Below, one piece after another: positions 1 through 47,097 of a stretch of DNA of 64,000 nucleotides (position 1 is the stretch's first letter; each line of letters begins with the position of its first letter). The DNA comes from Chondrosia reniformis (lineage: Eukaryota > Porifera > Demospongiae > Chondrillida > Chondrillidae): the NCBI GenBank assembly GCA_947172415.1, contig OX359193.1:5698501-5762500 (forward strand), read 5' to 3'. Position numbers and translations under genes: made by a program. The notes beneath the pieces are model-generated. The model was not told where the DNA came from and made no database searches. It saw only the letters and a program-made list of their open reading frames with translations.

Positions 1-594
1 TGATTTCCTTCCCTGTCATATCATATACGTAGGTATGTTATAGTTGTAATGCAGTTGAGAATCACAGTCCTAAGTGCAGGAGATCTACACAAGGTGCTAT
101 TTTACATTAAAAGTAAGTAATTTCATAATCTTCTAATATTTAGGTATATCAGGGTTTCATTCACCCCCCTTGCTAAAGAGTTCCCCACATTGGATGGTTG
201 CCACTTAACAAAATTTCTGGATGAAACCCTGTATATACATAGTACTTGAATGCCCATGCAGTGTTAATGCCATTTGTATATGCATATGTACGTATATACC
301 AGGAGTTTCTTTTAGAAAATCTCCCATAAAATATAGTGTATATTGAGGGGGCACCTACGTAGTTCAACAAGTCTGCTTGCTATTAAAATTTGGCAATTTG
401 AATTTCTTCAAAAGGGGAGGGAGGATTTTTAAGAGTAGTACTGCCTCCTAAAAGATATCCTGTATACATATGATATGTCTAATTTAATATATACGTAGCA
501 GTATATTGTGAAAAATAGTCATATTTTGTGGAACATAAGAGTTAAGTTATACAGTTACTGATATGTGCTTGTAATTTGCCAATGTAATCTGTAG
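1..594. other. Left flank of the array, probably a BCAS3 intron
   Basis: I see no credible coding exon here. From about position 500 the sequence (starting AGTATATTGTGAAAAATAG) is the same as that found before exon 1 of BCAS3 copies B and D, so the duplicated unit begins near 500. The part before it is unique in this window and is presumably the ancestral intron preceding copy A. Confidence 0.5.
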
Positions 595-3500
595 ATAATT
601 ACCCAGTTATTGAGTATCCCTGTAACCCAATTTCACTGGGTAGCTGCTGGTTGGCCTATCCGGATATAAAGCTAAACACTCATCACCAGTCACATGGGGG
701 GGTGTACCCAGAGGAGGGTGTGTCCATGAAGGCCAAGATGCTGGATGCCATGAAAGGTGTTGGAAAGGTTGCTAGTGAGGTGTACAACAAATACTGGAAA
801 GGAGAAGAGGTTCACAGAGAAGATCAGTCTCCAATTGTAAGTGCAGCCTTGAATAGTATTCATGGATACATAATTGTATTCATGACAATGGTACATAGTT
901 GTATTCATTACAACAGGTAGAATCATCAAGTGCAGGCTGTGTTATCACTATCCTGGATGTGGAGAGGGTCCTTGAAAGGTTTCCAGACAAAGATACTGGG
1001 ATTCATAAAGTATAGTTATATCAAAATAATACTGAAATGACAACTACATAATCTGTGCACCAACTGTGTATACATATATATGTACATGTATAATTGCATA
1101 TTTACGTATGTACTTACGTACGTATGTATGTGTATATGAAGGTTGACTTGAAGGATATGAATAGAGAAAGTGGTGTCATCGCTCACTTCTTGGCACACAG
1201 AGGAGATAACCTGAGACTAGCAGCTCTAGCATTTGATCCTACGTACGTAGGTATTCAGCACTGTGTACATGCTGTCTCATCTATCCATATAAAGTTTTAA
1301 TTTATATCTCCATCCGTCTGTTACCATCCATCCATCCTTCCCTTGATCTGTATACGTACATCCATCCAGGTATTCCTCTATTCTTACTGACTGCCCCTTT
1401 CACCCTTTTTAATGTCTCCATCTGTTCATTCCTATGCAATATCTTCTACTTGTTACTCCTTGTTCTCCTATCTGTCCTCTTTGTTTAGTGGAATGTTACT
1501 ATTGACTGCCTGTTCTGAGGGTCGTGTGTTCAATCTATTCTGTATTCACCCTCACCCGTGGCTATCATCGGAAACGTGTGTCCAGCATCTCTACTCCTTA
1601 AGGAGAGGAGACACAAGAGGATTGGTACATACACACCTGACTGTATCATATATTTTACATTAAATGAAATGTATACTGTAAAACCCTTAATATTATATGT
1701 ATTTAGCGTTTTACAGTATATGACTTATTAGCATCCATTAAATTTAGCGTTTTGCTGTAAATACTTGCTCCACACTACTGCACATGCGTAATAATAAACA
1801 TTTTAACGACCATAAATGTTAGAGAATGATATCGCATCGCTAATTTTGCTAACATAAATGGCACACTAATATTAATGGTTTTACAGTAGTTACGTGAGCT
1901 ACATATCATAGTTACTTATTACTACTTAGAATGACCTTTAGATGTATTTGTTTGCGATTGACGTTACAGGTCCAGGGTTTCTGTTTCAGCTCTGACAGTA
2001 GATGGGCAGCTATCAGCACTCTACATGGAACAACACATATATTCCCTATAACTCCCTATGGAGGTACATACATATTATTCATACAGTACATTTAGTATAC
2101 ATATTATGACTGCTGCTTCTAACTTATCTATGAACACTGTAACCAAATCATCTCTTAATTGACACATTTCATAATCCTGCAGTGTAAACATATGTATGAA
2201 TGTAGGTTGTAGGGACACACCATTTGTGAAATTCTGTGCATTGCTGTGACACCATCTCTTGTTCAGGTGCTGCAACAAAGAGAACACACCTCTCCAGTAG
2301 AGTGGTAAACCGCTCGGGGAGGTTCCATATCACTGCAGGTCTCACTGCTCACTCCACCTCAGTCAACCAACCTGATATAGCTTACAGCTCTGATATGGAC
2401 CAGTTTGCCTCATTGCAGAACTTTTCTAATCCTCATGTTGCATCTGTGTTGCAGAAGCCCCTGGAGATCCACCCATCTTTACAGATCAAGCAACCCGTCA
2501 TGTCATTGATAACGTTGGAAGATGAAGCTACTGGCTCTTCACCTAAAATGAATAGAAAGGGGAAATCCCCAGCATTGATATACCCTGTAGACACTCTTCA
2601 AGGACACTTGGGGATTGTATGTGCTGCCACATTTGCCTCATCTAGAGGAACTTGGAAGGAGCCGTCACATGGCCAATCCAAGAAACAAGGTATAAGTCTT
2701 CTAATAGCATGAATAATCTAATAGACTAGTTTTCAATATGCTACATCTGCTTTAGAATAAAAGGCCTATAGGGAACTAATCCTAGTGAGAGCTTTAGATG
2801 AGGATACAAGAGTTTCCTTTGTCTCCTTCTCTACATCTGCTTTAGATTAAAAGGCCCATAGGGAACTAAATCTTGTAAAAACTTTGGATGAGGATACAAG
2901 TTTTCTTCGTTTCCTTCTCTTTTTCCTATATTATTTGTACATTTCTTGCTAATATAGTTAAATCCTTGTTGAAAAGCGAAATAATCACTGGAATATATTA
3001 TGCCAAACCAGCCAAGTGATCGCAGTTTAATCTTGGCTGGGGAACCAAAGTCCTATTAAATTGGCAACCAGCGAGAGCCTCCCAGTCATCCAAGATGGAA
3101 AAATCCTAAAGAACCACAGACAGCTATTAAATCTGTGTGTTACTGTGTCTCCATGTTTGCCTGTAGAGCCTCAGAAGAGTGATGCTGTCGACTCCCTGTA
3201 TATTATTGGGGGCAATGGTGTTCTGACGGAACATGTCTTATCTCCACATGTTGCTAAGGATGCCAAGGGAAAGGATGATCGCTGTATTAAGAATGCACCA
3301 GATGATGCTCCCATTGAGTTAGAAGCTGCCCCAAGACTCTCTTGGAACCTCATTAGGTAACCTAGCAACCACCACCAGCAGCTTGTATGATCTCTAAAGG
3401 AGCTAATGTGCAACTAATTTTGTATTGTATACATGTGCATACGTATGTTAACCATTTTTAATGGATATTTTCTATGAGTTGATTTGTAGCAACTTGTGAA

Positions 3501-4965
3501 AAGCTCTTTCCTTCTTCCATTCCCTAAGGCAACTATCTCCTGCATCTAACTATGTTATCCAGAAGGAGTACAATCTGTGTGTATCTCAATACGATAGCTA
3601 CATTGAGCACCCTCAGTCCTCGACCCCCAGTAGTCCAGGCCTGTCGGAACAGTGGCTAGCTCATGTAGAGGTGTGCACCCATGAGGAGCCACCTAGAAGA
3701 CTGTGGATGGGACCTCAGTTCCAGTTTAAGACGTATGAGGTGCTTGAAAACAGTAGAAAAAAACAAGACACTGAGGATAACAGTGAGTTAAGATTACCTG
3801 TATCCTGAACATTAGCATGCTAAAGTCCCTACACACCTGGTGTTGGCAGGTAGTGATTTTGACATTCATTGACTCAGCCACTTTAGCTCGTTAGGAGACA
3901 TGAGTGGGTGGAGTGAATCCTGAGTTTAATGTCTTTGGGAAAATGGACACTTATAAAGAGGATGTGATATAATTGCAAAGCTTGCATTCCACACCATTTA
4001 GACCTACGTACATTTTACTTTTCTACGTAATTAATGTTGTCAAAATGTTAGCTAGGTATATGGAGATTTACATGGATAACACTGATTGTACAGACTGATG
4101 TAACCATCAATCTCTATATTGTATGTTAGTACACAGTTAGGCAGGTAAACTGGTTAGTACATCAGTAAACTAGCAGTAAACCTGTGTGTGCCGTATACCT
4201 GTAAAACTAATACCAGGCTGTATATCTGTAAAGCAATCAGTTTTTACTGACTAGCACCTTACTTACACTGTACATATTAAGGTTTGCAATCTGTCCAATG
4301 TAATGTGTAGGTTTCCAATCAGCTTATGAGGGAGAACATGAGGTTGAGAGTAGCATACAGAGTGCCATACTGCACACAACCACTGAGGAGGACTCACTGC
4401 TGCAGGAGAGATGCAACCTGACCAGCATTGCCTCCAGTCCAATGATGATTCCAAGGGACCACCACAACAAGCAAGAGGAGAATTTTATTGACAATGGACC
4501 ACCAAGTTTGGGAGCTACAGTTGGTGAGTTACCTGTCATGTCAATCCATGAGTTACCTTTAGTTCTTTAGTTTCAGTCAGTCAGTTCAGTTTGTTTTACA
4601 TACATACATACATATATTCCCATTGGAATATTGTAGTTTTATGTATACAGTAGTAATGAAAGAATATATAAGTAAATCCATGTTGCTGATGCTCAATACA
4701 GCTTTATTCTCACAGTATGTAAAAGACAGCTAACATCAGTCACACTCACTCTCTCGTATGTATACTTCTCTTAGATACTGTGGAGTACTATGGGTCATGG
4801 AAGGACAGTATTCCCAAGAATGGCGTGTTGCCACCCAACATTACCCAACAGCTGGAAGATGCTATGAGGGAATCCCCCTCATTTCCAAAGAAGGTCCTGC
4901 AAAAGAGAAACTCATCACCAGAAGAGGAATTTGATGATGCAAAGGACAACCTACCACTACCTTGA
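595..4965 (+). CDS. BCAS3: BCAS3-like protein, 3' ten exons (array copy A)
   Basis: The ten exons read 595-836, 917-1009, 1142-1242, 1489-1624, 1970-2063, 2267-2689, 3167-3356, 3529-3782, 4311-4523 and 4775-4965 (TGA). All splices are GT-AG and keep one frame. The translation follows the WD40/PROPPIN-type protein BCAS3 block by block: [106 protein letters not shown] and [10 protein letters not shown] near the C-terminus. Animal BCAS3 is a phosphoinositide-binding propeller that works with C16orf70/PHAF1 at phagophores and in cell migration. The N-terminal propeller exons are missing and should lie left of the window. The other array copies are 5'-truncated relatives, so this is the only candidate for a functional locus. 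The family assignment is firm; function in this organism is inferred. Confidence 0.88.
1674..1888. mobile_element. MITE in BCAS3 intron 4 (copy A)
   Basis: The element begins TACTGTAAAACCCTTAATAT and ends with the near-perfect inverse, ATTAATGGTTTTACAGTA. It is about 215 bp, AT-rich and has no coding capacity. TA dinucleotides at the tips suggest a Tc1/mariner-type non-autonomous element. The same element sits at the same place in copies B and D, so it was inserted before the duplications. Confidence 0.75.
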
Positions 4966-46610: not shown

Positions 46611-46828
46611 GGCAAAGAATTATACGATTTTTACTAACTTGATTGGGGGTGTACATTGGTACATATATAGAATAGATATGCAACACCTACACATATGTAG
46701 GAGTTGTATATCAATGCAAGTACAGTAAAAACAGAACATACCCAGTGATAAAATCAAATTCCTGTACACACCTTACAAGGTGCTATCAAGTTGTTTCTAA
46801 AGTAGATTACATAAGTATTCAACTAAAA
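46611..46828. other. Collagen 8 upstream flank
   Basis: Too short and AT-rich to hold a gene. It differs from the spacers of copies 1-5, in line with the different 5' end of collagens 7 and 8. Confidence 0.4.
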
Positions 46829-46973
46829 TGGAGTGTTGCCACCCAACATTACCCAACAGCTGGAAGATGCTATGAGGGAATCCCCCTCATTTCCAAAGAA
46901 GATTCTGCAAAAGAGAAACTCATCACCAGAAGAGGAATTTGATGATGCAAAGGACAACTTACCACTACCTTGA
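46829..46973 (+). pseudogene. BCAS3-like stub H (part of exon 10)
   Basis: From [10 protein letters not shown] to the TGA the frame is open, with V-to-I in KKILQK. The beginning of the exon and its acceptor are missing. It is the right-most trace of the array, 125 bp before the BUD23 start codon. Confidence 0.85.
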
Positions 46974-47097
46974 CATTGTATTATCTTTATTTCCTGTGGG
47001 GCTCTGTATATGTGCTTGTAGTTTGTTTCTTAATGTCTGTGTTGTAGTACTTAGCATAGTGTTAGTGTTACACAATATTATGAAATGTAAGAAAAAT

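Follow-up and report, generated by a model that had tools for sequence, protein, structure and literature searches.

A tandem array of collagen-stalked protein genes and partial BCAS3 copies in the sponge Chondrosia reniformis: constrained-looking gene tails beside a large head family

The window analysed here is a 64,000-nucleotide stretch of chromosome 5 of the sponge Chondrosia reniformis (assembly GCA_947172415.1, contig OX359193.1, positions 5,698,501 to 5,762,500 of the forward strand). According to its self-alignment and open reading frames (ORFs), positions 499-47045 form a tandem segmental-duplication array in which eight collagen genes on the minus strand alternate with plus-strand blocks of a BCAS3 gene. 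Identity among the blocks is mostly 84-98%, far above chance in the window self-comparison. There are nine BCAS3 remnants if the parent copy, the stub at 44953-45182 and the last-exon fragment at 46814-47045 are included. The array is real and bigger than first described. Its mechanism is ordinary; unexpected are the constrained look of partial BCAS3 copies and the membership of the collagens in a large head family with shared variable positions. The components of the array are as follows.

499-5132, plus strand: BCAS3 copy 1, exons A-J of the parent gene; its 5' exons lie upstream of the window.
595-836, 917-1009, 1142-1242, 1489-1624 and 1970-2063, plus strand: exons A-E of BCAS3 copy 1.
2267-2689, 3167-3356, 3529-3782, 4311-4523 and 4775-4965, plus strand: exons F-J of BCAS3 copy 1, in one open frame with exons A-E.
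5756-7111, minus strand: collagen 1, open, with signal-peptide-like start, GXY stalk, neck and head.
7621-12536, plus strand: BCAS3 copy 2, exons A-J with splice sites kept, a +4 frameshift in exon J and a fused partial exon G at the start.
13362-14695, minus strand: collagen 2, broken by a deletion in the head.
15558-17815, plus strand: BCAS3 copy 3, exons G-J, decayed, with a stop in G, exon I inverted (16441-17046) and a -1 frameshift in J.
17961-19331, minus strand: collagen 3, open.
21204-26151, plus strand: BCAS3 copy 4, exons A-J, complete and intact.
26248-27600, minus strand: collagen 4, open.
28311-30491, plus strand: BCAS3 copy 5, exons G-J, decayed (4 indels).
30619-31962, minus strand: collagen 5, open.
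34871-37111, plus strand: BCAS3 copy 6, exons G-J, intact.
37267-38619, minus strand: collagen 6, open.
42136-42506, plus strand: BCAS3 copy 7, exon J only, frame broken.
42682-44016, minus strand: collagen 7, open, with the second type of signal peptide.
44953-45182, plus strand: BCAS3 stub, the final bases of exon J and downstream sequence.
45268-46610, minus strand: collagen 8, frameshifted in the neck, with the second type of signal peptide.
46814-47045, plus strand: ninth BCAS3 remnant (copy 9), a broken piece of exon J.

An earlier description made from the letters alone, here called the sequence-only reading, had reported eight collagens alternating with BCAS3 3' pieces. This was borne out by the self-comparison and by the domain match of copy 1 given below. 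Its count of six open collagens out of eight likewise agrees with the ORFs; the other two are collagen 2, disrupted by a deletion, and collagen 8, disrupted by a frameshift. The claim that the pairs always lie tail to tail holds for the opposite strands in general (BCAS3 plus, collagen minus). It fails in exon I of copy 3, which is inverted and is the single exception to the strand rule, and in the ninth remnant, which sits 5' of collagen 8. The distance between homologous stop positions is 791 bp in the first pair and 287-363 bp in five others. Between collagen 5 and BCAS3 copy 6, the minus strand carries decayed pieces of a retrotransposon without long terminal repeats (32758-34853), one with a sub-threshold zf-RVT match.

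The spliced tail of copy 1 matches PF21034 (BCAS3_WD40, E 1.3e-46), and the 5' exons of the gene, at about -2300 to -620 relative to the window start, match PF21034 positions 2-94 (E 1.7e-7). The C-terminal domain of BCAS3, a gene linked to phagophores and autophagy, reached 18.1 and 16.2 bits against a cut-off of 19 (PF12490), and a six-frame genome search gave no candidate for this domain. The searched BCAS3 5' exon (one exon tested) occurs at one place in the genome, exon A at three and exon H at six, all A and H places being inside the window; the BCAS3 pieces are therefore nested 3' portions of one gene. Exons A-J are retained in copies 1, 2 and 4, exons G-J in copies 3, 5 and 6, and exon J in copies 7 and 9. 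Copies 2 and 4 share a fused start junction, where a partial exon G is joined to the intron preceding exon A, so either one of the two gave rise to the other or a common block gave rise to both. The donor of exon D is GT in copies 1, 2 and 4. An in-frame ATG stands directly before exon A in copy 2, and in copies 1 and 4 a stop follows right after that ATG.

The BCAS3 pieces are not uniformly decaying, and some look kept. Decay, which the sequence-only reading had ascribed to them all, is evident in copies 3, 5, 7 and 9, which are broken, and in the last exon of copy 2, but not in copies 4 and 6. Copy 4 keeps its ten exons and their splice sites with zero stops and zero indels, copy 6 is intact across exons G-J, and copy 2 retains all ten exons with the single +4 frameshift. 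Exon J is frame-intact, and encodes the same residues, in copies 1, 4 and 6, three of the eight copies in which it measures at least 159 nt.

Pairwise omega (dN/dS, the ratio of nonsynonymous to synonymous divergence) among BCAS3 copies 1-6 was 0.04-0.22. Exons differ by 1.45-3.4% versus 5.5-13.2% in noncoding parts, and each pair among copies 1, 2, 4 and 6 carries 0-1 indels in exons versus 9-22 in noncoding sequence. In copies 1, 2 and 4 exons are mostly less diverged than the flanking introns, with few exceptions (e.g., intron A-B of pair 1-2). Codon maximum likelihood (ML) was run with our own code, using pooled terminal-branch tests on three trees; copies 7 and 9 and the stub were too short and were excluded. 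With the terminal branches of copies 2, 4 and 6 pooled, omega was 0.14-0.16, and omega of 1 was rejected on all three trees (twice the log-likelihood difference, 2dL, 35.7, 31.6 and 47.5). Taken singly, the branches of copy 2 (omega 0.12, 2dL 19.5) and copy 4 (omega 0.18, 2dL 14.1) rejected it as well. Majority polarisation yielded 28 synonymous and 14 nonsynonymous changes specific to copies 2, 4 or 6, and 7 synonymous changes, 7 nonsynonymous changes and 1 stop specific to copies 3 and 5. Synonymous divergence (0.04-0.13) is comparable in magnitude to that of the noncoding parts; homogenisation restricted to exons is thus not the cause of the low omega. In introns H-I and I-J, copy 1 differs from copies 2 and 4 by 12-17%, versus ~4% between copies 2 and 4, so recent conversion from copy 1 was not the source there. 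The lack of coding constraint after duplication that passive pseudogenes would show does not fit the tests of copies 2 and 4; copies 3, 5 and 6 taken singly do not reject omega of 1, and copies 3, 5, 7 and 9 are broken.

The array extends beyond the window. Four more close collagens lie on the plus strand at about -33.8 to -22.2 kb from the window start, one truncated and one with a stop, and their signal-peptide type is the second one, that of collagens 7 and 8. Their companion is the last exon of another gene, present six times, which we take to be SEC14-like; a CRAL/TRIO exon nearby matches PF00650 (E 6.9e-8). BCAS3 exon J remnants stand ~0.1 kb and ~1.6 kb before two of these collagens, from which we infer that the sub-array derives from the array of the window. 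Beside one upstream collagen, at -25139 to -23968, lie frames that we presume to belong to a Penelope-like element (reverse transcriptase and a GIY-YIG-like stretch). On chromosome 9 (1885001-1955000), the last exon of a Q/S/G-rich gene occurs in nine places, the original included, among related collagen-head genes. Coding passengers are present in three of the five collagen arrays or sub-arrays looked at; those at 6.26 Mb of chromosome 5 and on chromosome 14 were not searched for them. The ratio of nonsynonymous to synonymous variation (pN/pS) was ~0.54 for the SEC14-like last exon (hand sum over six pairs among four of the six copies; a pooled value of 0.83 includes the frame-shifted fifth copy, and the sixth copy is unpaired). 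It was 0.47 for the chromosome 9 passenger exon (28 pairs from eight of the nine places, parent included, with a 101-base piece dropped). Both passengers are looser than BCAS3, but they make a weak control, as their parents may be less constrained than BCAS3.

The predicted collagen product begins with a signal-peptide-like stretch and an N-terminus bearing Cys, followed by 45 GXY triplets (with one residue missing in collagens 1, 3 and 6), a short neck and a head of ~220 residues. The stalk matches PF01391; the signal peptide and the coiled coil of the neck were judged by eye, without a predictor. Two unrelated signal-peptide-like starts, one in collagens 1-6 and the other in collagens 7, 8 and the upstream copies, precede the same mature protein, and the switch falls at or next to the mature N-terminus. 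Codon ML was run on the eight intact collagens, six from the window and two from upstream; the broken ones (2 and 8 in the window, copies 2 and 3 upstream) were excluded. It gave omega of 0.27 for the helix, 0.97 for the neck and 0.47 for the head, and counting gave 0.25, 0.85 and 0.53. Comparison of dN/dS between the two gene sets, which the sequence-only reading had expected to expose relaxed BCAS3 pieces, thus came out in the opposite direction: BCAS3 copies 2 and 4 lie below every collagen region.

Collectins and ficolins combine a collagen stalk, a neck and a globular recognition head. The sponge proteins share this layout from the signal-peptide-like start and N-terminal Cys through the GXY stalk and coiled-coil-looking neck to the C-terminal head, and a related member carries the head on a coiled-coil-like stretch. 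They look like secreted, collectin- or ficolin-like binders; the layout is plain, and the neck would make them trimers. Unlike collectin and ficolin heads, the sponge heads match no lectin, fibrinogen or C1q model. No relative of the head was found in Pfam, NCBIfam or PDB sequences, the one PDB match of a head profile being at E 1.8. Scans with two short peptides each, which reach close relatives only, gave 24 pattern matches in bacterial genomes, 11 in archaeal genomes and 31 in viral contigs, none of them confirmed.

The sequence-only reading had called these genes short-chain collagens, a name that does not hold in the NC1 sense. None of 22 heads matched the C4 model PF01413 (limit E 10, with HMMER filters dropping most matches above 0.1), and the same model detected a C4 locus on chromosome 1 of this genome. 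NC1-type short-chain collagen was rejected as an identity, and with no NC1 domain detected these are not typical short-chain collagens. Spongin short-chain collagens resemble them in having a short collagen domain in one open frame in a sponge, but differ in their C-terminal NC1 (C4) domain, which is related to collagen IV (as given in an excerpt of PMC5395295). Spongin-like proteins of Nematostella are reported to have derived NC1 domains (PMC12549020), so a very diverged NC1 in the present heads is possible.

About 150 or more copies make up the head family of which the collagens are part. Head matches were found at at least 150 places genome-wide among 321 candidates, broken copies being included and one gene counting twice. 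The exact DPLWDG motif occurs 159 times in the genome, again with broken copies, versus once for the reversed control. On chromosome 7 (157000-2092000) there is a very large cluster of head-domain genes. One chromosome 7 member, a single example, lacks collagen and carries its head on a coiled-coil-like stretch after a signal-peptide-like start. One chromosome 6 member, also a single example, carries a short stretch of collagen; the segment preceding its head matches COLFI, the C-propeptide of fibrillar collagens, below threshold (E 8.3e-6, 25.7 bits versus 26.2) and Fibrinogen_C weakly (E 0.068). The two examples suggest that the head is the common functional part, and the matches seen only in the chromosome 6 relative hint at a fibrinogen/COLFI relationship, which is unproven.

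Variation in the head was compared between eight copies of this array (six in the window, two upstream), eight of a chromosome 5 array at 6.26-6.30 Mb and ten on chromosome 9. Frames shorter than 380 residues were dropped (2 of 10 in the 6.26 Mb array and 2 of 12 on chromosome 9), as was the chromosome 14 array, with three usable members. Nonsynonymous variation per codon is correlated from array to array (rho 0.32, 0.32 and 0.48; p 1.5e-6 to 4.9e-14), with weak or no correlation of synonymous variation (rho 0.21, 0.00 and 0.16). With hypervariable positions defined from two of the arrays and scored in the third, pN/pS was 0.88 in this array and 1.08 and 1.59 in the others, versus 0.47, 0.44 and 0.30 elsewhere in the head. 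This points to diversifying selection at fixed head positions, clearest on chromosome 9. A head stretch lacking synonymous change was also considered as a DNA-level element and rejected (longest run 25 codons, permutation p 0.10).

The best explanation, which we hold with moderate confidence, is co-duplication of a convergent pair with selection for head diversity and purifying selection on some BCAS3 tails. A pair consisting of BCAS3 on the plus strand and a gene for a collagen-stalked secreted protein on the minus strand would have been repeatedly duplicated in tandem, each block taking only part of BCAS3, hence a single 5' half and recurrent nested 3' portions. To the nesting, the junction common to copies 2 and 4, the last-exon remnants by two upstream collagens and the two further passenger genes, this explanation adds unequal exchange as the probable engine. 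Selection for many different heads, indicated by the variable positions common to the other arrays, would be the driver. BCAS3 tails would arrive as passengers, and the signature of purifying selection on copies 2 and 4 suggests that they are translated now or were until recently. One route would be splicing from the single BCAS3 5' half into later modules, giving alternative 3' ends; the other would be N-terminally truncated genes with their own transcription from the divergent region by the collagen starts. Translation of copies 2 and 4 by one of these routes appears most likely; the persistence of the tails may reflect truncated genes, alternative 3' ends or an earlier, inherited constraint.

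Inherited constraint is the core of the main rival, to which we assign a sizeable but lesser probability, short of an even chance. Here all BCAS3 pieces except copy 1 are pseudogenes whose low omega dates from their time in a functional gene, either as copies of diverged alleles or as tails rotated through the intact position by unequal crossing-over. Several observations weigh against the preferred explanation and suit this one. The frame of exon J is broken in five of the eight copies where it spans at least 159 nt, copies 3, 5, 7 and 9 are broken and copy 2 is frameshifted, and copies 3, 5 and 6 singly fail to reject omega of 1 (2dL 3.1, 1.95 and 1.4). Yet the broken copies 3 and 5, when pooled, show omega of 0.31, 0.31 and 0.23 on the three trees, rejecting omega of 1 less strongly (2dL 5.3, 5.2 and 10.5); part of the constraint may therefore predate breakage and be inherited in copies 2 and 4 too. 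Intron divergence is a mosaic. Diverged alleles exist, judging by k-mer completeness of 69.4% for the primary and 93.7% for the combined assembly (excerpt of PMC12181767), from which we estimate ~2% heterozygosity. On the side of co-duplication with selection, the 14 nonsynonymous to 28 synonymous changes in copies 2, 4 or 6 contrast with the ~3.5 to 1 predicted without constraint, noncoding divergence exceeds the heterozygosity estimate, and introns H-I and I-J contradict recent conversion from copy 1. The sequence-only reading, in which the BCAS3 tail is carried along passively, is thus upheld as to co-amplification with collagen and not supported as to the tails being merely carried, since copies 2 and 4 reject omega of 1.

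As for what selection acts on, the sequence-only reading had named collagen dosage or diversity, and diversity is the part that fits better, given variable positions in three arrays. Dosage alone, in which many similar collagens would supply more extracellular matrix, accords with the large copy number, the helix omega of 0.27 and the description of the species as collagen-rich. The variable head positions common to three arrays, a neck omega of ~1 and the chromosome 7 member with its head on a coiled-coil-like stretch make it improbable. Head diversity has its own difficulties: pN/pS at the variable positions of this array does not exceed 1, and synonymous variation is raised there too (0.231 versus 0.132), which indicates that segment exchange between copies contributes, and for a head that has no solved relative by sequence, binding is a guess. 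An assembly artefact, with haplotypes falsely duplicated in tandem, is very unlikely. The source is a heterozygous diploid, and four haplotypic duplications were removed in curation, but HiFi coverage of ~70x and a quality value (QV) of 69.8 argue for the assembly (excerpts of PMC12181767). Two haplotypes of a single individual could not supply eight distinct collagens, unless it was a chimera, and the units differ by 5.5-13.2% in noncoding DNA as well as by truncation, inversion and a retroelement.

Partial tandem duplicates that carry a neighbour's truncated gene resemble this array, as the copies start within introns or exons of BCAS3, so that nested 3' pieces result. It departs from them in that at least two pieces are constrained and that three passengers stand beside one head family in one genome. 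At mod(mdg4), one 5' part serves several alternative 3' modules. The layout here is similar, in that a single 5' half precedes several 3' modules that are nearly intact, and antisense genes lie between them; the putative modules of the sponge locus encode nearly the same protein, unlike those of mod(mdg4)-type loci. In open-licence literature we found no description joining BCAS3, tandem duplication and collagen, in agreement with the sequence-only reading, which knew of none for the pairing. Nor did we find there any description joining sponge, hypervariable, gene family, collagen and allorecognition, or any title or abstract opening naming a hypervariable collagen-head family.

To the right of the array, the plus strand carries two long single-frame MFS transporters (PF07690) at 47376-48959 and 59525-61204. 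Two exons at 61822-62583, also on the plus strand, presumably resemble TEX264; the first has no Pfam match.

A broader reading is rather doubtful but worth stating. The genome may hold a germline repertoire of ~150 or more gene copies, with one head on interchangeable collagen or coiled-coil stalks, that diversifies fixed head positions for recognition of microbes, symbionts or self; BCAS3 would then combine a single 5' half with several alternative 3' modules, conserved and set apart from one another by antisense genes for head proteins. In the array itself, partial duplicates of a conserved gene seemingly retain coding constraint without its 5' half, and three different neighbours have been swept into arrays of one gene family. 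If the head family is such a recognition repertoire, sponges would possess a large collectin-shaped system encoded in the germline, with variable positions that the genome shows directly and that recombinant heads would make testable.

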